DNA from: Tubiluchus corallicola
Lineage: Eukaryota > Priapulida > Priapulimorpha > Priapulimorphida > Tubiluchidae
Assembly (NCBI GenBank): GCA_030141605.1
Contig: JAQGDQ010000190.1
Coordinates: 248,001-312,000, forward strand
DNA: 64,000 bases
Direction: 5' to 3'
Shown: in pieces, positions 356 through 58,800 of the stretch
How positions within the stretch are numbered: position 1 is the first letter of the stretch
Layout of the letters: every line of letters begins with the position of its first letter
The notes under the pieces: generated by a model
Told to the model about the DNA's origin: nothing
Databases searched by the model: none
The model's input: only the letters and a program-made list of their open reading frames with translations
Made by a program: the position numbers and the translations under genes

Positions 356-363
356 TATATATA
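356..363 (+). promoter_or_regulatory. TATA box of the EGF–ApeC gene
   Basis: A TATATATA block lies 69 bases before the start codon at 432. A TATA box normally sits about 30 bases before the transcription start, which would put the start near 385–395 and leave a short 5' leader of about 40 bases. The box is seen directly; its use is inferred. Confidence 0.55.
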
Positions 364-431: not shown

Positions 432-3400
432 ATGGAAACTGTGATCATAATTTTGGGCTGTTTCTTCATTTGCTTATCTATAGGTATAGTATCTTGTTCG
501 TTGCAAATTTCGAATAGCAAGCTAGAAAAATTGTGATACCGATCTTAAAAAACATATTGCCACGAGAAATTGATGTTTAGGCACATAATTAACTCGGTAT
601 TGGCAAATATAACATTGTCTTATGTGTAATTTTGATCAACACTTTTTTCTTTTAGGTTGCAGTGACAAAAAATGTCAAAATGGAGCAACTTGCATAGGAT
701 CTGACACAAATTATTTTTGCAAGTGTGCTGAAGGTTTTGTAGGTACCCATTGTCAAAATGTTAACCCATGCTACAACAACCCGTGCTTACCAAATGGAGA
801 TTGCATAGTTCCAAATCCTGATGACACACAGGTTCCCATACCTCACCTATGCGTTTGCTACGAAGGATGGTCTGGCACAAACTGCAATGTGTGTAATCCC
901 TGTACACTAGGTCTGAACTTGTGTGGTGATTATGGTACATGCAATCTGGCGCCAGAAGGCCAAGATTGTGAAATAGAGTGCACATGCCATGATGGCTGGG
1001 TGGGTGAATATTGCAACATTGAAAATCCCTGCACTGATCAGGAAGTATGTAATGGCGGAGGAGACTGCACGCCAAATACTGAAAATCCATCACAACCTGA
1101 TTGTCATTGTTTTGAGGGTTATCTTGGCCAGCACTGTTTGCCAGATCCATGCTATGGAGATGCTAATCCGTGTGGCAGCAATGGTGTATGTCTCCCCGAC
1201 GACCTGGAAAATCCCAGCTATGCTGTGTGTGAATGCGAAGCAGGATGGATAGGACAGCACTGTGAATTTTTAGATCCTTGTTTTGATGAAATGGCCTGCA
1301 ACAACAATGGAATTTGCACGCCCGATGTGGATGACCCAACGAAGCCTGTCTGTGACTGTAATGCAGGTTACATGGGATTAACATGCTTACCCGATCCATG
1401 TTACGAAGACAGAAATCCCTGTGGTCCATTTGGTCAATGTTATCCAAATGACTATGATTACCCTACACAGTCAGAATGCATATGTGATCTGGGCTGGCTA
1501 GGGGAACACTGTGATGTGCAGAATCCATGCTATGGCACTGCCAATCCATGTGCAAATGGTATATGCCATTTTGATCCTGAGAGTCCAGAGGACGTTTTCT
1601 GTACTTGTTATAGTGGTTGGATAGGAGAGTATTGTGACACAGTAAATCCCTGTTATGGAGATCCATGCGAAAATGGGCAATGTACTTATGATGAAGAAGA
1701 CCTTGACAATGCTTACTGCACGTGTGAAGTAGGTTGGATAGGCGAATATTGCCAAATTCTTGACCCTTGTTATGAAGACGCTAATCCATGCGTGCACGGG
1801 TCCTGTAGTTATGATCCCTATGACATCTCCCAAGCTGTCTGCACATGTGATAGTGGATGGGGTGGCGTACATTGCAACAGAGGTACAGTGATTTTTGCTA
1901 AATGTTATTCATACAACTCTTCTCAGCACAAAAACTGCTTCCAGTGCCGCTAATGTTAGTTAGATATTACAATAGCTTACAGACTTGGCAGGTCTTTGGA
2001 AGGACGTTTTTTGCAGCAACATATTCAACTCATAAGAAATGAAAATTGTGAGTTGATTCATTAGGCTGTACAAAATCAGTTGAGATTATAGGGCTCAATT
2101 TTGTTACAGTTCAGTGTTCACCTGGTTATTACAGTATGGATGGGACTGAACCTTGTGACCAATGTCCTCTGAACACCTACCAATCAAATTCCGCATCAAT
2201 TATATGCATTGAATGTGAAGAAGGAAAAATAACTGAAGATGTTGGGAGTACTAGTCCAGACGATTGTGTAGGTAAGTTAAGCAAAATCCATAATCTAAAT
2301 ATTCTAAGGTATGGAACAGCAAATCAGTCTCTTGAGCTATACAAAGAAATAAGGGAATGATTTTCAAAATCTACAGATGCAAACATTCACGTTAAATCGC
2401 ATATAAACTTTGAATTACAGATCCCCCATTATGGCCCAGAGGATACTACGGGTTGCCTATGCCAGATGTGGGTTGTCCCAAAAGTTTCAATCAAAAATTC
2501 ACTTGGCAAACAGGTACACGACACCAGGACACAGAGAGAGGAAATGAATGGAGTTTACCGCTTCACTTTCCACCGAGATATGGTAAGTTATGTCTAATCT
2601 TTCAATGCCAAAATGATTTAGACCCTCAGAACAACCATTAATAATGTTTATATTAAACATTATAAAACAAGTATTATATAACATTAGACATTATAAGGCC
2701 TAGATATAAAAACCCTATAATGTGCACTATCAATATTTTAGCACTTGACAGCGTTGACCAACATTTTTGCATGAAGAATGTGTACAGTGAACAAGGTGAT
2801 AATGAATGGGAGGAAGGAAAATACTGTCTGTTCAAAGCTGACAATGAAATTTGTCCATCAGGGTTTAATGAGGGATACATCAAATGGGACGACAGACTAA
2901 TGTTTAACCAGAACAGTCTAACAGGTAAGAACGACAAATGGATGGTGCACCAGCACACTTTTTGTTGGAGGGTTGGCATTGTAATTTGTCACTTCTATTT
3001 GCGCAACTTAAACATGATTTATATAGGCGCTGTAAGCAACGTGCTACAATGGCACAATCTAGAGTTAATAATTTTAATAAGAAGCGGTCGACTCATAGCG
3101 TATACATGTTGCATAAATTTCATACATTCTTTTAAGGACTTCACAGCACAATTTGAATCATCGTTAATAATATTTCTCATGATTAAGGTTCGTACCCGGA
3201 AGGTAAATACGGGATGAATACAGAAATTCATTTCTGCTGCCGAGTAAACGGTTATGCTAACGAAGCCATCAGTTTGCCCAACAATGCGCCATTTTACTTG
3301 TTGCAGTACGGAGATGACTGCCAGAAGGTAGTTCACTTTAGTTCATATTAGCATAGCCCATATATACGGAATTATGAATGCGTATTAGCATAAGAATATA

Positions 3401-4429
3401 CAAGACTCTATCTATTAAACAGAACTGCATAATGTAGGACTAATTTAGATTGCATGTATAATTGTAGCAATATATCGTGCGACCATTATTATATGCACTT
3501 TGACCTATTTTAATAAGTGTTAACTTCAAGCAGCTAACCATGGTTAGTATGTACAGGGTAAGTCGAGAAGTTACTCAGTTATTACTGACCTCCTTGCACG
3601 GAAAACAGCCAAAAGAAAACAAACAAAAACCCGAAGAACAGCGTGTAATTTTGAAAAAAGAACAGTTGTTATAAAGAGCAGTTGTTTTAGTATTTGATGT
3701 TGACACCACTTGTAGGTGGCGATTAATCGGACGGGGGCTACAATATAATGCTGAATTTTCTCAAAGAGGTCTCACGACTAATTTGTTGAATTTCTTCAAC
3801 AACTTAATTGATTTTGCTGGAGATAAAAATTGAAAAGAAAGGGAATAATATATCATAATGTCAAAAATAGTAAGAAGTATTAAACAGACGTTTATATCTA
3901 TTTGTGACAACTTTTAAGTCTAAAGGATCTATCATTTTGACATCTTGTTCATACCTATAGTAGTATATAAACTTTATTTATTATGAGCGGATTTAAATGC
4001 GGTACAATACCATTACTGATCACAGTATATCCACTATGAGTGGTGTTGAAAATATGGTACATTTTAGATAAGGACAGATATATACAATTAGTTAGTTCGA
4101 GAATATAATTACACAAATTGTTAGTTCAAAAATACGAGTAGTTCATTAGTTAATACTTATCTGAAATATAGACCTATAGTCTCCTTTTTGCCTATAGTAG
4201 TGTGTTTGTCAATTTCGCGTTAAAATAACGGATAAAATTTTTGCTTTGTCTAATGACGTTGTCCGATAATGATATTTTACAGGTAAAAGGCATGACCTCC
4301 ATAAAGGAATGGTTTTTCTGGGACTGTAATAAGTGGCCTCCAACTGTCACCTCTTCATCTGGTTGGGTTCCAAAATCTACAGTCGGACGAGATGTGAAGC
4401 TTCATTATTGTTACTACGCACCAGCTTAA
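432..4429 (+). CDS. Secreted EGF-repeat / ephrin-receptor-like / ApeC (apextrin-like) protein, 7 exons, 690 aa
   Basis: Exons read from the sequence: 432–483, 656–1882, 2110–2271, 2421–2582, 2742–2924, 3188–3327, 4283–4429; total 2073 nt with stop. Every junction has GT…AG and keeps frame. Exon 1 encodes a signal peptide (METVIIILGCFFICLSI), so the product should be secreted. Exon 2 encodes ten EGF-like repeats (about residues 19–426), many opening with a DPCY/NPCY motif. Exon 3 (about 427–480) is a GCC2/GCC3 module (CSPGYYS…CDQCPLNTYQS…CIECEEGK). Exons 4–7 (about 481–690) form an ApeC domain, with landmarks PRGYYGLPMPDVGCP, DQHFCMKN, GKYCLFK, HFCCRV and DVKLHYCYY. ApeC proteins include sea-urchin apextrin (apical matrix) and amphioxus apextrin-like proteins that bind bacterial peptidoglycan. 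A matrix or microbe-recognition role is therefore inferred, not shown. The first five introns are short (about 140–260 bp); the last is 955 bp. Confidence 0.9.
656..1882 (+). repeat. Tandem array of ten EGF-like repeats in one exon
   Basis: This single 1227-nt exon encodes ten six-cysteine EGF-like units of about 33–44 residues. Each ends in the usual C-x-C…GW/GY-x-G-x-x-C pattern (for example CDCNAGYMGLTC, CICDLGWLGEHC). Units 2–10 share an N/DPC opening, and units 5, 7, 8 and 10 share NPCY/DPCY followed by a second NPC. The stretch between cysteines 4 and 5 is acidic and proline-rich. The exon starts and ends in phase 1. The first unit differs (CSDKKCQNGATC) and is closer to a standard EGF domain. 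Confidence 0.9.
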
Positions 4430-4538: not shown

Positions 4539-4544
4539 ATTAAA
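4539..4544 (+). terminator. Possible poly(A) signal of the EGF–ApeC gene
   Basis: ATTAAA, the common variant polyadenylation hexamer, lies about 110 bases after the stop codon at 4429. Another ATTAAA follows near 4664. No canonical AATAAA is seen closer to the stop. Confidence 0.4.
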
Positions 4545-6468
4545 TATGTTAATCAATCACTATGATGTCCTTCTAGATTTAGAATTTACATTCTTAAGGA
4601 CGTGCTTGACTAAATGGCGGTGTTCATAACATGTCATTAACTAATTTTTCCTTAAAACAACAGCATTAAATCAAAATATTTAGCTGTCATAGACTACCAT
4701 ACTCTTTCCACTTTTGACAGAATGTGAGAAGTTTTTGTACACTGCAATTTAATTTGTAAGGGGGTTCATATTATGAAATCTCAAATCGTCGTCAGGTCCA
4801 TTAACAACGCCTGGTCATTTTGTAATTTTTCTGCAACATTAATCATAAATTTATTCAAAACATGCCAAACTGTTTTATTCGCTGATTTTATTTGTAGGAC
4901 TTTATTACACCGTGGCATTGTGAGATATTTCACCACACAACCTTTGAGTGGTACGTCAGCAAACGCCTTGAACATGCCTGAACCTTTGAGCAGCGCGTTA
5001 GTAAGGCACGAAAATCGTTCAAACCTCGCAGCTGCAGCAGTTATTTCGTTTTTCTAGCTTGGGGGCAGATTTCTTTTATCTGCAGTCTACTGTTGAAAGG
5101 GATTAGGCGGGTAATTTGCCTGCTTGATGCTAGAAGACGTATAAAGCGCAACAAATGATGGCGACGAGGACGATGACGGTGATTATGAAAAGTGGGTTCA
5201 TTACGGCCTTGCGTGAAATTGCTCCTGTATCAATAGCAAAAATACTGCACAAAATAAACGCGAGACAAAACATAAAAAACACAAAATATGAAATCAGTAC
5301 TTCTACAAAATCTGTTTTAAAATTAATAACAAATTAATAATACTAAGCTGTACTTTACATTGAAATTTAGGGCGAAATCACTCTTTAGCTACAAAATAGT
5401 TGAAATTTCAAGATAAGTACAGGCTGCTTTGTAATAAAGGACATCGACCAATCTACATGCAAAACAATAACGTGGATTTGAGTTATCCACTTTGTAGAAG
5501 TGCCCTCTGAGACTATTGAGCGGCAGAACGTGAGTTAGATAATTTAGCGCCTGTAGTCGTAAATTGAAAGAAGCCAGCACATGTATGTGTATGAGCCAAC
5601 TGGTGCATGCGGCAAACGTGTGGATAATGGACAAGAAAATGTAAAAATATTGATCTTCAATAACAAAGTGAACGTTTATTGCTAATTCAGGATAAAGACC
5701 TGCCTGGTGCTTTAAAGAAAATTTGACGCAAAGTGAGCAAGACAGTTCAAAAATACACCCTTTGCAAAATGTGTGCATGATAACGGAGAGCATAATACTT
5801 ATTAACAAGGATTACTTCCTGTAATAAAATTTAACACACTGTGTGGCTGTTCTTTCTAACGTTCCTGTGAACGTTAAAGCTAAAGGATTAGAAAATAAAA
5901 ATTATATGCCGATGCTAAATAAATATCATTGTATATTGCAACAAGAATTTATTAAGATCATTCTAATACCACAGGCTTGATTATTGAACACGTGGCAAGT
6001 TGAATCACGTCAATTTAGGAAGCAGTCAAAAGACAACTAAACTTTTTCAAAGAAAATCACTAGCAGTTGTTTGGAATGTGTTAATCCGCCACGATAAACA
6101 TCACAGCGATTACGGTGTACATGCAATAAAGCTTTTCAACACACGCATTGCCTTAGGGTAACTTTCATGTAGTTCACGCTACAATGAGGATGTTGAAAGC
6201 TCACCGTAACCATCAATGATGTCGTATTAAAGCATTGTTTTTTAAAGTGCCGCCTTTAGGACCCACATAACAGAAAATTGAAAAATGATCGTCGCACACC
6301 TAATTTGGAGTTAAAAATTATTTGATAGTGTACTGCAATACGACTCTAATGGTATCTCTAATCGTAGGTAATGCATACGAATAGTAGAAAGGCGCTTCGT
6401 AACAATAAAATCAAATGGTATATTAATATGCCTACATATGACACGCCAGAAGTTACCGCAATCACGCT
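4545..6468. other. Intergenic DNA, no gene supported
   Basis: No exon-like reading frame. A 130-codon open frame on the minus strand near 5389–5793 shows no recognisable domain and no splice context. The stretch includes a repeat fragment near 5059–5190. Confidence 0.5.
5059..5190 (+). repeat. Dispersed repeat 3' end, partner near 50.05 kb
   Basis: The block around GGGCAGATTTCTTTTATCT recurs at 50049–50071 with one mismatch over 23 bases. In both places a GAT/ATG-rich stretch follows within about 100 bases. This fits two decayed copies of one retroposon ending in a simple-sequence tail. The outer limits are uncertain. Confidence 0.35.
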
Positions 6469-7856
6469 TAGGGGTATTCGAGGTTCTGGATGGGGATCAA
6501 TAGTTCGGAATCAGGGTTCGAGACGCTAACTGGGTTCGAGATCGAATTTGTCAGGGTTCCGGATGAAGTCGTCGGGTCGGAGTTCTCGACCCCGAATATA
6601 ATTATCAGTAAATGAGATAAAAAATTACGAAATTATTTCATTCTCTCGTTCACTTCTTCAATTTTAGCTCTAACCTATTAATATTTCGATGATTGTGACA
6701 TGGCGTTCACCTAGCGGCGATAGTTTCAAATGGTTTGATCTACAAGCTGCAGCTAGACCTATTTGCTAAGCAAACTTAATGCACTAACGGTAATCTTGTT
6801 TGCTATGAAGTCAAAATAATTGTACTGTTAAAAAGAATTATGCATATGCATAAGGAGTTATTATTGACTAACTCGCTGACTGATTAGTTGTTTCGGCGGA
6901 TGTTAGATGGGAAAGATATTTTAAGTTTAAAACGCAGATGGTATAAATCAAGTTACTTCAAAACAGTTCAATAAACCATTTACTTACAGAGCCGATGTTT
7001 GGAAAATAATGTGGTCTATTTTGATGTATTACGTAGAAAAGCTATAATTATATAGTTTTAGGTGTAAATTCGTAAACGGCGGTAATCGTGTTATTAGTCA
7101 AATTGGGTGGTGATGAGAACCTGACCTGACCTGTTCGGCATAACATCAAACTACGCTGATACTGCTATTTGTAATGCTACATTACAAACAATTACTTGCT
7201 AATGCTTACATGCCATTGCTTGCACTTTTCATTAGTTTTACTTTTTCTTTACTTATTTTAAGTTTTCTATTACTTAATTATTTTAGTTTAATATATGCAT
7301 GCTTTCTTTGTATATATGCTTTTTATGAACTTTGTACCTGGTTTAAAGAATAAAATAAAGTTACGAATACACTAATAGCAGTGAGACAAAAATCACGTAA
7401 AAACAATAAAGGCCCCAACTTTTATATGTTTTCCAGATTATTCTTCCAACATTATTTACAAATTACACCAACCCTGGGTGTGAGTCCCCGTGCGACCACC
7501 AAAATAAATTAGTCACATTCATTAATAGCTGCAGTTCTCTGTATGTGTCACCAATGAGTAATTCATGCGTTGACTTTAAATTATTAACAAGACGTTTTAA
7601 AGAGTAACGGAACATTGGTAATCACGCCATACAGCTATAATCAATAAAATCTCAATAAAAATATTTTATCACAAAATTTAAGCTACAAAGAGCACGAATA
7701 ACTTGGTAAAGGGCTCATTACTCTTGATAAGCCTCAAAACCAGAAGTACTTTTACAATTATTATAAACTTTTAAACTTCGGGGTCGGGTTTCGGAACAGA
7801 ACCGAATGTTTGGGAACGTGGTTCGGGATTTGAAAAAAGTTCCCCGAACACCACTA
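6469..7856. mobile_element. Candidate non-autonomous DNA transposon
   Basis: The left end begins TAGGGGTATTCGAGG. The reverse complement of the right end begins TAGTGGTGTTCGGGG. Both arms continue for about 120 bases with GTTCGGG / CGACCCCGAA-type motifs in inverted orientation. The interior is AT-rich and has no reading frame. The TAG-G-GGTG-like termini recall hAT elements, but no 8-bp target duplication is present; a TA flanks both ends. Boundaries and superfamily are tentative. Confidence 0.4.
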
Positions 7857-10800
7857 ATAGATAAAAGATAGATAAAACCTTTATTTGCCAATTAAAATTT
7901 TTGTATAAGAAATGTATATTGCGTAAGGGAGGCAGCATACCAGTCAATCATATACAGAGTATGCAACAGAATATTGGGAATAGCGTCATCAACAACAAAT
8001 AGAATGAAAAAAGAACTACGAACAACAAGTAAAGAGAATCTATTATTTTACTCAACATTATAAAATTACTCGTAATTAATAAAACTTCAAAACACAGGTT
8101 ATGTACAAAATTTACATATTTACAAAATTAAAAGAATACTAAAATGATGAATATAATAAAATTAGTTACTTTCATTATGCATAAAAATTAGCAATATTCT
8201 ATATCATAATTATGATGTCATAGATTACAGATCATGTCTATTTTTAAGCGTTTCGGGCTATTAAATTCACGGTCGTGGAAAAATATAAGAATTGTCAGCA
8301 GGCCTAACAAAATCATGTCTATTTTGGGTAAAAGAAATATGCTTGCAAGATTATGTACTGTAAGCTTGGATAAACTCATTAGTAATTAACTAATTAAACA
8401 AGCAATACGACATTTTGCTGTTAACTTGAGCAAAAATGACGACATTTTATATAGATGAGATAGACCTGCAGAATGATATTCCAAGCCCTGCATGCAGCGG
8501 TGCGGTGTGCTGACAGTGCGCCCAACGGAGGCGTCTGGTGCGGCTTGTTACCGACCCACCTCTCTACTGACAAAACTGAGGAAACAGACAAAGACATGGC
8601 ACTCACTTCAGATTCATCGTGCGTAAGGGAGACTGCTATTGAGCACAACACGCGACTAAGTAGATCAGTGGTAATTGAATAGGCTGGCAATAATGAGTGC
8701 AAATTGCACAATAAATCAAGCTTCATAGGACTAGCTCTTCAGCTCAGAACATTTGCGCATGCGTAGCTTAATACAAGCGATGTAATTAATTCGAACAAAT
8801 CCGGATTTAAACGTGGCTTGAAATGATTCACAAGCACTCAAGCAGGTACAAAACAACGAGTAGTGAAATAACATTAAAACTAAACAGCATATGGAAATGA
8901 ACGACCTTAAGAGTGAAAATCAAAATGGAGAATGGCCGTCATTATGTGCATTACTATGCAACCACTCATGGTCCATGGCTACTTATTATGATCCGCCCAA
9001 AGTAAAATGCTTGTTAAAAGCTTGAAATGTTTAGTCTATTTAGTCGGCTAGACTTGACTATATGCAGAGTTTTCTGACTTCTGCAATGAGTATTTCGCCT
9101 CTGGGCTAAATGCAAGCTTACGCCTCTACACCATGCTCAATAAACTGCACAAGCTATATGTTGAGGAAAACCGATTCTTGCAGAGGATTTTGACGGGTGT
9201 TTCAATTATATTCAGATTTTTCTTCATCAAAGAATATTATTCTTTGTGAGCTGAACAGACAAAAGAATTCATGAAGAAGCTGTTACACGGTATAAAACAA
9301 AGTGAGAGAACAGACAAATGTAAAATTAATAGGCGTAACATCGCGTACAATGCATAAAAAATGAAGTACGTTATTAGAATTAATGGCAGGAAGTTACAAA
9401 TGCATTTTTGTGGCAATGCTGAACTACTCCTAGTTTACTCCTACTTACAAAGAAAAAACCTAAAAAAATGTGTAACGAATTCTCTGAAATACGATTTTAA
9501 ACATCGAATGCAGTTTACAGTTTACAATTAAGATTATAGAGAATAATCAGAATACTAACACCTCTCAAGAGGTTAATAAAAATGCCCAATGCAATTTGAA
9601 TAAAGACACTGAATAATTAATTAACTACGTACAATTGCACGTTGTTGTTTCAGTACTTGAGCCGTTATATTTCTTAGCAATAAAACTTGCCTTGTTTTTT
9701 TATTTTGGCACAACGCTTGTTGATAGTTCAATAAATTAATTTGCTTATTAATTTTATAAGGCCTTTGGAGTTGTTTGCAGTTGCTTTTGCTTTTTACTTT
9801 TTATAATAATTGTTGTAATTTTTGGTCGTTTATAATAATTCCTATTCGAACTAATGTTTTCTGCAGTTCAAAATCGACTTTAAAAAAATATGCTTACTTA
9901 CTAACCTATGACGGCTTGCGTTACGTGTAAGAATATGTTAATAACTAAATATGCGAACGAAAACTGCAAAAGGAATCATACGCCACAAGTCCTACACGTA
10001 GGTGTTTCTAAAATCGCGATTTTGCAAACGCCACTGCGGAGGTTCGAGGACCTCACGCACATTAATACAAAATAAGCGATTATTAGACATGATCATTCAA
10101 TAAGTTTTTACACCGTAATGGCTGATGTACATAATATAAGCATGCTGCGCACGAACCGATTTAATTAGTTAATGGCAGGAAATTCGTGAAATAAATTTCC
10201 TACTCTGCCAGCCATTTCAACATTTTACCATCAAGTCCCCCAAGACGACTGTAAAACGGTGAACATTATACGTGAAACGAATGAGAAAATCTCTTTTTAT
10301 TAGCATCGGGTTTTATGTCAGCTGGATTCATTGGTGCATATAGACTTTTACAACCGTCGATGTAGTAGAATAATACACTGCAAAATACATTAGGCTGGGC
10401 AATCTGCAAATTACTATATAAAACCCTGAATCTCTAATATACGAGGCTAGATCTATAGCTTATATAGGCCTACACACACCCTACTATGTAGTTAATTTCC
10501 GAAGGCTCTTCCAAATCCTTTTCTCAGCCTACACTGCACTGTTATATTGCAATGCTAATGGATAAATAAATAAATAAATCTATCTAAGTCTAAATCATTC
10601 TTTCAACATGCCGAAGAATTAATTGAACAGCAGCGAAAAGAGGACCCCAATGCCTAACACGATTACATTTACAACTTGGACTCAATAACAACAGTAATAA
10701 GCACAGAAGAATTCCCTGACAACGCGGCGCACCGGTAATTAGGTTAAGAGCGGAACCTCATTCGACCGTCAGTCTAATTTAGAGCTCTTAGCGTAGATCG

Positions 10801-54756: not shown

Positions 54757-55881
54757 TCACTCTTTGTTATCGCAAACAAGAAGTTGCTTGGGAGAATACG
54801 GCTTCATTGATTCCTTTACGGCTTCTAAAAAGTTATGATAAGTTACAGTTTTAACAGGTGGCAGCACTAGCTTACCAGCTTGAATCATATTAAAGATAAC
54901 ATCGAACATTGTGTCCTGTTCCCGTGTTCCTTTATGCTCTTCATTCCACTTTGTCATCCAAAATCCGGTCGCATTTTTTCGACTAAAAATCAGTGAACCA
55001 ACAGGTAAAATTACAGGTTGTCTGGACATACCTCCATAGGTGACCATAATTCCGTGATCAGCTAGGTAGCGCATGAGTTGTGTTGAACTCTTTCCTCCTA
55101 CACAGTTTAATGCAAGTAAGGGAGCCTCACGATTGAGCATGAATTCTTTCATCTCTTTGCCTAGAAAGTGTTCTTCACTTATAACAAAGTTAGCACCAAG
55201 TGACTGCATATGTGCCTTTATTTCATCGAAGTTATCTCGTTTACGGAGAATATTAATTGAGACTAAGCCCATCTCCCGAGAAAGTTGAATGACATTGTAA
55301 CCCACGCCACTGTTACAACCATTCTGTATAATTGTGTCACCGTGTTTTAGCCTTTGAAAATCACATAAAAGTCGATAGGCAGTACAAGCGTTCACTGCTG
55401 CAGTAGCAGCGTTGTAAACCGGAACATCCTCTGGAATCTTTCTAATGTTATCAGACAGCATAATAGAATGAGTACGCCATGTTCCACATCCCGAAGACGC
55501 AGGAATAACTTTATCACCTGCTTTAACACTAACGACAGCATCGCCAACATCTATCACTTCACCAACACCTTCGTTACCTGCAACAGCCGGCAGGGATGGT
55601 AATTTAGCATATGTACCCTGTATCATATTAATGTCCGCTGGATTCACGGGTGAGGCTAACATGCGCACTAAGATTTCATTTTGCTGCAGCTTCTCTGGCA
55701 AATCAATGGTGACTTTTTCTAAAACTTTTACAGGATCACCATGTTCTCTGTAGACAATCGCAAATACCTGTTCGGCCATGTTGAACAGATGACGACAATT
55801 TTGCTGTTGCTGTAGTAGCTGACACTTACTTTGAAACAAACGAAATACTGGGAACAGCCTTCTATGAACAACTGCCATCAT
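54757..55881 (-). CDS. MECR: Mitochondrial enoyl-[acyl-carrier-protein] reductase (2-enoyl thioester reductase)
   Basis: Intact single-exon coding frame of 374 residues; the human protein has 373. It catalyses the NADPH-dependent last step of mitochondrial type II fatty-acid synthesis, which supplies octanoate for lipoic acid. The N-terminus is basic, without acidic residues (MMAVVHRRLFPVFRLFQSK), as in a mitochondrial targeting peptide, and a second ATG follows at once. The catalytic tyrosine region is NPADINMIQGTY (Tyr91 here). The nucleotide-binding stretch is IIQNGCNSGVG (about 184–194). The family motifs GTWRT, ALNCVGGKSSTQL, MVTYGGMSRQPV and GFWMTKW follow in order, so the medium-chain dehydrogenase/reductase fold looks complete. 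No key residue is missing. Coding introns are absent; whether the 5' leader is spliced cannot be seen. An intronless copy could be an old retrocopy, but the frame is under clear constraint. I am confident of the identity. Confidence 0.95.
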   Translation of the reverse strand: MMAVVHRRLFPVFRLFQSKCQLLQQQQNCRHLFNMAEQVFAIVYREHGDPVKVLEKVTIDLPEKLQQNEILVRMLASPVNPADINMIQGTYAKLPSLPAVAGNEGVGEVIDVGDAVVSVKAGDKVIPASSGCGTWRTHSIMLSDNIRKIPEDVPVYNAATAAVNACTAYRLLCDFQRLKHGDTIIQNGCNSGVGYNVIQLSREMGLVSINILRKRDNFDEIKAHMQSLGANFVISEEHFLGKEMKEFMLNREAPLLALNCVGGKSSTQLMRYLADHGIMVTYGGMSRQPVILPVGSLIFSRKNATGFWMTKWNEEHKGTREQDTMFDVIFNMIQAGKLVLPPVKTVTYHNFLEAVKESMKPYSPKQLLVCDNKE

Positions 55882-58800
55882 GTATTGAATTTAAGTTAGA
55901 TAATTAGCATACAGCACACATTACAGTGAAAATCCACCAATTTATAATCTGTAAAAAACAATTTTATGAGAGTCGGGATACAGGTTGAATTTGACCAGAT
56001 TTAATAAGTAGATTGAAATTGAACTATATATACTAATTTGTCACCACTATTAGTATTTACTTGAATCTTTCAGGGTCCTTCACTGACATTCACCTCACAA
56101 ACATAGTGATACTCTGTAGACAAGATATTTACCAAAGCAGTACTCAGTCTGCATATTGATGCTGTTGCATCTACCTAAGCACTTACCTAATAAGCACTAC
56201 TACATCATGTAACTTATACACAAAAAGCAGTGACTCTCAAAATGAAAGCGGGTTTAATCAAAGAAATTTTAGATATAACCAACATAATTATTATATGATA
56301 GTCCGATCTCGGTCAGCAAACTTAACCAAGCTCAATAATTGCAATCCTCAAAAAAAATTGGAAAGTGCTGATCATTAATACTTCAGACATTCAATTCCTT
56401 TGCTATCATTAAACTTTGATTTTCTAAATAATTGGAAATAATCACATCTAGGCCTTTAAAGCTGGAAACCTAATGAAACATTCAAACATACTATCATACT
56501 TTGAGTACTTAAACTCGTATGACGTAGTTAGATGTAACACATGCCATGTATGGATAGGTTGACAATGGTTGTTTCTTCTACTGAGACTTCTAGCTTTAAA
56601 GAACTGTGCATGATGTTACTAATGATTTGAAATTTACTGATCATATTACTGAATTAAAAAAAAGCAAATATACATATTTGTATTTGTATGATAAAACGAA
56701 GGGTAATTAGCAGAGATTCATTTTTCATTTCGCTTTTTTGCAAAAGTTGTTTGAATATATTGCTGTAGTGGGATCGCCACAGTATATTACACACCGTCTT
56801 TATACTGTCTTCGTTTGACAAAATGGTCTTATTTTATTGTGTGTGTCTTCCTTAGAACAGATATGTAGCACTAACGATTTGCTATGCACACAGAATGGTG
56901 ATAATACGTGCAATTTTCTGATTCTCTTTTCTAGATCTTTTTGTAAGCCATTCTAATAAACTTTTTTGTCCTGGTGAACAAAATATCGTGTGGAAACATT
57001 TCTTCCGTCATTGTGTAATCAGAACTTGAATTCCAAACAATGTAATAACTTAATAAGAGAACATTTGCAAAATTAAAGCGCACTGAGGATGGCACATTTG
57101 ATGTCAATTACAGACTCAGCTATACTGCATAAATTAACAGGCTCATGAGTCATGGCAAATAGAATTTGTAATAAAGTATGAGCGAAGCTGCATGTTATGT
57201 TTCATGTTGCCTTTTACCCAATGTTATTACAGATTATTGTTGTTGGTTAAGTTATAGGGGCCTAGTAATACACACACCTATGTGTGTATATGAAAGTGAT
57301 ATCACCTGACCACCTGCCTCAGGCTTCTGTTGCTGATGCACGCACAGTAGCATTGACTGTGACCTCACCTCTCTGTGAAAAAATTTCTCTTTCTTCTCCA
57401 ATACGGCCTGAGCAAGAAGTCGCATGAGATATGGACTTTACGTATAAATTGCCATAATGCCAGTGTTTAGTTTGAAAGCATAAGGCCAGCAAAGAGCTAT
57501 GTCACTCTTTAGGTGAATCTGCAAATCACTGATTCAGTACTGCAGTTTGACTAAGTGGTGAGTGGTATAGTCCTCCTTACCGACTTGCAAACGTGGGAAA
57601 ACTATACAAAATTAAAGGTACGACTGTAAAACCTACATTGTAAACTTCTCCTTGATCACTCTGAATGATTGCTACATATTGCATTTACTGTTAACTAGAT
57701 CTGCAGTCCAATGGAGTTACTATGCCAACTGCTTAAAATGTGAGAAGCTGGATGTGCATAATAATAACTGTAGAGCCATTATTCTACGACTGCAGCTACG
57801 CTAGCTAGCTTATATTTGGCAGGAAAATAGATGAGCGAACTTCTCCTCTAACCCACTTAACATTGTTAAGTATTCTAAATACTGTAAAACTGTATTTTTT
57901 TGAGTATCGTTGTACAGACCAGTTTTGGTGACTGTTCTTTAAATTTGTTATGCATCTCCTATTTCTCGCATTCCTGTTTTGCATCTTATGATTTACGAGT
58001 AAAATACCTTCCGCAAGATGTAGGTGAGAACAGGCTTTAAATCTATGGCCCCAGAATAGTAACGTCAAAGCCATGAACCGTTCTACAGCTAGAATCATTG
58101 TTGTTAGGTGAAAATAAAATCATATGTCACTCCACATTGTAAAATATCTATGTGGAAAAACTGCAACATAATACTGCACATAATGCTGTGGCAAATGTGG
58201 TTCACTGAACGTAATTGAAAATCGCCACATCACCAAAATGACGTAAAAGGTACTGCCACACAGGAAAAACTTGCAAGCACTTGCTGCCATCTACTGGATG
58301 AAAGACGAAGTGGTAATCTGCCTATAGCTAGACCACGTTTATTTACATTAACCCAAGAACAAAGCATGGTAGAGTTAACATCAAATAGTGAGAAGAATCA
58401 GTTAATACAAAAACCGATAACATGCGCAATGATAGCGACTTAATGGCAAACAGATAAGCATGCCAGCGACACTGTACAGCAGATACAGGTAAACAATCTA
58501 GACTGTAGTTAATTGAGGTGGTAATGCTTCAGAACTGCAAGTAGTTTATATCAAAACATTATAACTGAAAAAAACAGACAACTAAATAGGTTCTTAAAAT
58601 TTTACATGAAGATCAGGAGCAGGAGTCAAATTGTATTTTATTAGGTGCACTAGGAAACATTAAATAAAACACTGCGTGGAACTTTCGTGTTGGCTTGAAA
58701 TCCTTGTACGCATTGTGCCGCTACATATCGTGAGAAGGTACAATGAGCACGATGCTGGGGTTCATGAATTAGGAAGTGGCAACCCGATACATAGCAAGAC

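Follow-up and report, generated by a model that had tools for sequence, protein, structure and literature searches.

One predicted gene of Tubiluchus corallicola joins ten EGF-like repeats, an Ephrin_rec_like module and a complete ApeC domain

Among aquatic invertebrates, the glycan-binding domain ApeC has received little study, and its binding has been tested mainly in short forms of ApeC-containing proteins (ACPs). The domain has been described as promiscuous, with more than 20 architectures (PMC8361754); its known settings include the mollusc ACP groups 8 and 9, described with more than 10 domains that are mostly of extracellular or matrix kinds (PMC9585378), and lancelet proteins that combine fucolectin, C-type lectin, CUB and ApeC (PMC12373286). 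In amphioxus ACP3/5 and two mollusc ACPs, ApeC binds Lys-type peptidoglycan and agglutinates microbes with no killing, and ACP1 has been termed an essential mucus lectin of the gill (PMC8361754, PMC9585378). The three DXED motifs of ACPs are described as "relatively conserved", which makes them typical and not required. In amphioxus ACP5 all three are mutated, binding is kept and the protein is still an ACP (PMC8361754). Here we describe a predicted gene at positions 432-4429 of a 64,000-nucleotide stretch of the genome of the priapulid Tubiluchus corallicola (C1089:248001-312000, hereafter the window), which joins a signal-like N-terminus, ten EGF-like repeats, a GCC2/GCC3 (Ephrin_rec_like) module and a complete ApeC domain in a single product of 690 residues.

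On the DNA, seven predicted exons of the plus strand join in frame to give 690 codons and a stop; all six introns are GT-AG, with phases of 1, 1, 1, 1, 1 and 0. This bears out the gene structure given in a preliminary description of the window, which had proposed the same seven exons, with matching splice phases, between 432 and 4429. The features of the gene are the following:

356..362, plus strand: TATA-like TATATAT, a possible core promoter, 76 bases upstream of the ATG
432..483, plus strand: exon 1, with the ATG at 432 within CACCATGG, the signal-like stretch METVIIILGCFFICLSIG and a phase 1 donor
656..1882, plus strand: exon 2, ten EGF-like repeats, residues 19-424, symmetric 1-1
2110..2271, plus strand: exon 3, Ephrin_rec_like (GCC2/GCC3, PF07699), residues 427-481, symmetric 1-1
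2421..2582, plus strand: exon 4, ApeC part 1
2742..2924, plus strand: exon 5, ApeC part 2
3188..3327, plus strand: exon 6, ApeC part 3, with the acceptor AAG
4283..4429, plus strand: exon 7, ApeC part 4 and the stop codon, with three residues beyond the profile match
4539..4544, plus strand: ATTAAA, a possible polyadenylation signal, about 110 bases past the stop

Two further TATATAA elements lie at 224 and 241. The AAG acceptor of intron 5 is the sole unusual splice site, and the peptide that results from its use, GSYPEGKYG, aligns with the corresponding residues of the paralogs (GSVPHGDYG in paralog C and GECPDGDYG in paralog D). An open frame of 446 amino acids, together with the domain scores given below, excludes a chance origin.

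The EGF array, the GCC2/GCC3 module and the ApeC domain most likely belong to one gene, as had been proposed from the letters. Every junction is phase-compatible. For exons 3 and 4, no in-frame ATG lies between the exon and the stop that precedes it, which means that a second gene would require an unseen exon. Exon 3 is also flanked by introns of 227 and 149 bases, and the locus is internal to a single contig, C1089, of 414,637 bases. That two adjacent genes, or an assembly join, have been misread as a single gene is thus very improbable, even though the model is drawn from DNA alone, the EGF frame by itself would continue to a stop at 1951-1953 if the exon 2 donor were unused, and in-frame ATGs lie upstream of exons 2, 5 and 7 (at 622, 2720 and 4253). 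The peptides that begin at these three ATGs are, by eye, unlike signal peptides, and the ATG at 622 precedes exon 2 in frame if intron 1 stays unspliced.

In a Pfam scan of the whole 690-residue protein (E-values up to 0.001; seven families listed), ApeC (PF16977) scores 193.6 bits against a cut-off of 26.5 (E = 4.9e-57) over residues 485-687 and the entire profile (1-208 of 208), and EGF models also exceed their cut-offs. Ephrin_rec_like is not among the families of that scan; when the stretch is scanned alone, it reaches 51.1 bits against a cut-off of 23.1, again over the entire profile (1-48 of 48), and a genome scan with PF07699 recovers the exon 3 location at 50.2 bits. Between them, these scans find EGF, Ephrin_rec_like and a complete ApeC, the domains for which the preliminary description had suggested a search, each above its cut-off. 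Modules like this 51-bit Ephrin_rec_like may escape automatic annotation where they stand next to long EGF arrays. The signal peptide that had been proposed corresponds to 18 residues at the N-terminus that, read directly, look hydrophobic and signal-like, and from which secretion of the protein would be expected. By their cysteine pattern, the EGF repeats number ten; each accounts for six of the 62 cysteines of exon 2, and the two left over lie in and just before the third repeat. The net charge is about -60 for the EGF exon and -75 for the whole protein, which holds no N-glycosylation sequon in any of its 690 residues, and the calcium-binding EGF and Asp/Asn hydroxylation patterns that we used gave no match in the EGF array. 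Only three residues follow the ApeC match, and the protein therefore has no membrane tail or anchor.

By its ApeC score, which is over the Pfam cut-off, and by eight conserved cysteines, the predicted protein falls among the ACPs. Three narrower or different identities were rejected. It is not an apextrin proper (MACPF and ApeC), as MACPF is absent from the seven families of the whole-protein scan, nor a short-form ACP, in which ApeC is the sole domain, as EGF and Ephrin_rec_like are present. Nor is it a teneurin: EGF_TEN, at 63.7 bits, is under its cut-off of 65, and the whole-protein scan lists no other teneurin domain. The EGF_Teneurin repeat model scores 76.7 bits, over its cut-off of 24.3, and probably matches EGF repeats generally. 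No PDB chain matches the ApeC domain at E-values up to 10.

The ApeC profile was run against the whole genome (343.5 Mb in 2344 contigs), with all 25 candidates scored, and gave 18 exon matches: three on C1089, nine on C1844, five on C390 and one on C1366. These were read as about seven ApeC genes, one on C1089, three on C1844, two on C390 and one on C1366. As judged from the match breaks, ApeC is interrupted at about the same places as here in five of the six other genes, and the C1366 copy has it in a single open frame. In an alignment of the seven domains, for which five split copies were built from joined exon pieces, the eight cysteine columns are invariant and the C1089 copy is 37-49% identical to the others. 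PF07699 has 41 matches genome-wide (49 of 49 candidates scored), none of them on C1844, C390 or C1366. An EGF profile made from the repeats of the array found nothing at E below 0.3 in 60 kb around the other ApeC genes, a scan that excludes the 2 kb between pieces at 268001-270000 of C1844, and the control, array L008, returned 20 domains. Within the regions examined, an EGF array, Ephrin_rec_like and ApeC occur together on C1089 alone, in one of about seven ApeC genes, and the architecture, called unusual in the preliminary description, is unusual in this genome.

The further proposal, that the protein is a candidate new class, is too strong given the many architectures and the multidomain mollusc groups already recorded. 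EGF and ApeC in one protein are undescribed in the open literature searched, a scope that lies outside figures, supplements and the main survey of the family (Li 2021, doi 10.1016/j.ympev.2020.107009). Since ApeC is already promiscuous, a new list of partners makes a variant and not a class, and annotated proteomes may well contain this architecture already.

Several observations were made around the other ApeC genes. The C1366 gene (L006, C1366:323001-333000; features at 4683-5162, 5385-5666 and 5951-6724) has two exons upstream of ApeC on the same strand, one for CUB and one of F5/8-type-C (fucolectin-like), and resembles in parts the lancelet proteins with fucolectin, CUB and ApeC. On the minus strand of L001 (9877-9734), upstream of a C1844 ApeC gene, the final ApeC exon recurs as an isolated copy that contains an in-frame stop and may be left over from a tandem duplication. 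Between C1844 ApeC genes, L002 holds at 931-1980, on the minus strand, a cysteine-rich frame of its own (350 amino acids) with a long terminal run of glutamates. Within it, the stretch at 1036-1419 gave weak EGF-like tblastn matches (best E 6e-4), about 4.8 kb upstream of a C1844 ApeC gene, and was rejected as an EGF array near an ApeC gene, having no Pfam match at E-values up to 1 and no match to the EGF profile. Pattern searches for ApeC relatives gave 14 stretches in bacterial and archaeal contigs and 12 in viral contigs, none of which was confirmed; these searches used one and two short patterns and do not contradict the prokaryotic ApeC-like domains that have been reported.

EGF arrays of the kind found here are common elsewhere in the genome. 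Within 148 EGF matches from the best 64 of 619 candidates, at least seven arrays of the same kind lie in long open frames, two on C426 and one each on C204, C262, C564, C467 and C2241. They have 7-20 repeats by the same cysteine pattern, and their net charges range from -25 to -132; N-glycosylation sequons number 5-26 in six of the seven and are absent from the C262 array. Several of the arrays L008, L009, L010, L012, L013 and L014 start with a signal-like stretch, and these arrays bear sequons, unlike the window gene. Identity of the window array to outside arrays is 47-48% in the three best rows among the matches listed. The C262 array (L011, C262:1-6000, minus strand, about 3788-2298), at 36% identity, is collinear with the window array over an alignment of 418 columns and shares the extra cysteines of the third repeat; its frame is cut off by a stop codon within a repeat, at about 2.3 kb from the end of the contig, and the genome profile scans gave no match to ApeC or Ephrin_rec_like on C262. 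When each of the ten window repeats was compared with its nearest repeat, six had their closest counterpart outside the gene and two within it, and two were tied at rounded percentages.

Both the EGF exon and the Ephrin_rec_like exon are symmetric 1-1, which indicates exon shuffling. The simplest history would be that an EGF array of the genome-common kind and an Ephrin_rec_like exon were shuffled, in this presumed direction, upstream of a four-exon ApeC unit of a sort that stands without them elsewhere in the genome. A rather doubtful extension of this history is that the protein is a lineage-specific recognition or surface-matrix protein, in which a member of an expanded acidic EGF-array family has been fused to a glycan-binding ApeC head carried on a disulfide-rich stalk.

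Further observations concern the other arrays. On C564 (L012), the array is followed downstream by an Ig-like frame (I-set, 26.8 bits; cut-off 23.7) and then by a further EGF fragment (4687-5109 and 9351-9758); such arrays may be linked to heads of more than one kind. On C426, the frames of L008 (33001-43000) and L009 (60001-70000), with 20 and 16 repeats, are closely similar, in opposite orientation and about 30 kb apart, as in an inverted duplication or through an effect of the assembly.

As to function, we consider it most likely, with a probability of about 0.5, that the product is a secreted lectin for microbes, borne on an acidic EGF stalk and kept within mucus or a matrix. The C-terminal ApeC would act as its binding head, with bacterial peptidoglycan or a related glycan of the surface as the likeliest ligand, and the acidic, cysteine-rich array of ten EGF repeats together with the Ephrin_rec_like module would form a stalk or spacer that anchors the head in mucus or in a surface matrix, or that alternatively permits several ApeC heads to be linked. 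Microbes caught by the heads would be agglutinated and retained at the epithelial surface. An EGF stalk with an ApeC head, as put forward in the preliminary description, is a reasonable reading; the microbial ligand proposed with it, and peptidoglycan binding in particular, is carried over by analogy with other ApeC proteins. The lectin reading is favoured because the cysteine frame is kept and because ACP5, with all of its DXED motifs altered, still binds.

A number of points weigh against it. The places where the DXED motifs are predicted to lie read DTER, DDRL and DCNK here versus DTED, DDED and DCED in paralog A, a deviation that the binding of ACP5 turns into a caution and not a refutation. 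The ApeC proteins whose binding has been tested in the literature consulted are short forms or have at most a CUB partner, and the role of the domain in a long ApeC protein may differ from that in the tested short ones. The stalk shape gains nothing from an AlphaFold prediction of the EGF exon alone, run with no alignment, in which the mean predicted local distance difference test (pLDDT) was 42.3 and the predicted template modelling score (pTM) 0.16. Finally, no NF-kB-type site was found in the 8.5 kb of L007, where 0.08 were expected, and that null is hence uninformative.

The strong negative charge of the protein and of its EGF exon would suit a structural or adhesive protein, in which the acidic, disulfide-rich EGF array does the work, by giving cohesion or by binding calcium or surfaces, while ApeC attaches the array to the animal's own glycans, be it in a matrix, an egg coat, a shell or a glue. 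This is a possibility that we take seriously, if tentatively: ApeC or apextrin-like proteins have been recorded in embryo matrix, limpet pedal mucus contains a multidomain ApeC protein (PMC7333891), mussel nacre contains an apextrin-like protein (PMC4517812), and the EGF and ApeC families have been discussed together in oyster attachment (PMC10225672). It has to contend, however, with the fact that, in the literature consulted, direct tests of ApeC binding concern microbial walls, and that the exons upstream of ApeC in the C1366 gene look lectin- or complement-like. A developmental or signalling ligand, with Notch/Delta-like EGF repeats binding a receptor and ApeC localising the protein, is unlikely. 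The EGF exon does match Delta/Jagged and teneurin-type EGF models in Pfam, and a Notch-1 chain and a Delta-like-1 chain in the PDB, but such matches to Notch/Delta-type models are generic, and the protein has neither a membrane anchor nor, in the Pfam scan, a DSL or other signalling domain.

Elsewhere in the window, an intronless open frame of 377 amino acids with ADH_N and ADH_zinc_N lies on the minus strand at 54757-55890 and looks like a mitochondrial enoyl-CoA reductase. In the wider genome, a homeodomain search gave 37 matches; among the 12 loci examined, one homeobox (L018) resembles Lox4, a likeness that taken alone would suggest a spiralian. Signatures of Lox4 and Lox2 are named in PMC10675955 and PMC7011278. 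A search for COX1 (PF00115) found no match in the genome.

The compactness of this three-part gene makes it a good test case for deciding if ApeC proteins of the long kind serve as immune lectins or as matrix components, and the gene clearly illustrates the bringing together of exon modules of phase 1-1. With the short-form ACPs (amphioxus ACP1/2, oyster CgACP1 and snail BgACP1) its product would share secretion, one C-terminal ApeC and eight cysteines; these lack the EGF array and Ephrin_rec_like, peptidoglycan binding has been shown for them and is presumed here, and the DXED-like places deviate in our protein. Apextrin proper would likewise share secretion and the C-terminal ApeC, and differs in having the MACPF domain. 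The limpet protein P-vulgata_14 also has ApeC in a secreted multidomain setting, with a listed content of peptidase M12A, ApeC, CUB, Kringle, Sushi, C-type lectin and ShKT, that is, with a protease domain and no EGF in the list given (PMC7333891). The mollusc ACP groups 8 and 9, compared by their description, share the combination of ApeC with many extracellular or matrix domains (PMC9585378). Amphioxus ACP5 has, like the protein described here, an extracellular domain before ApeC, eight cysteines and alterations in all three DXED motifs (PMC8361754), and differs from it in carrying CUB and a spacer in place of ten EGF repeats and Ephrin_rec_like.

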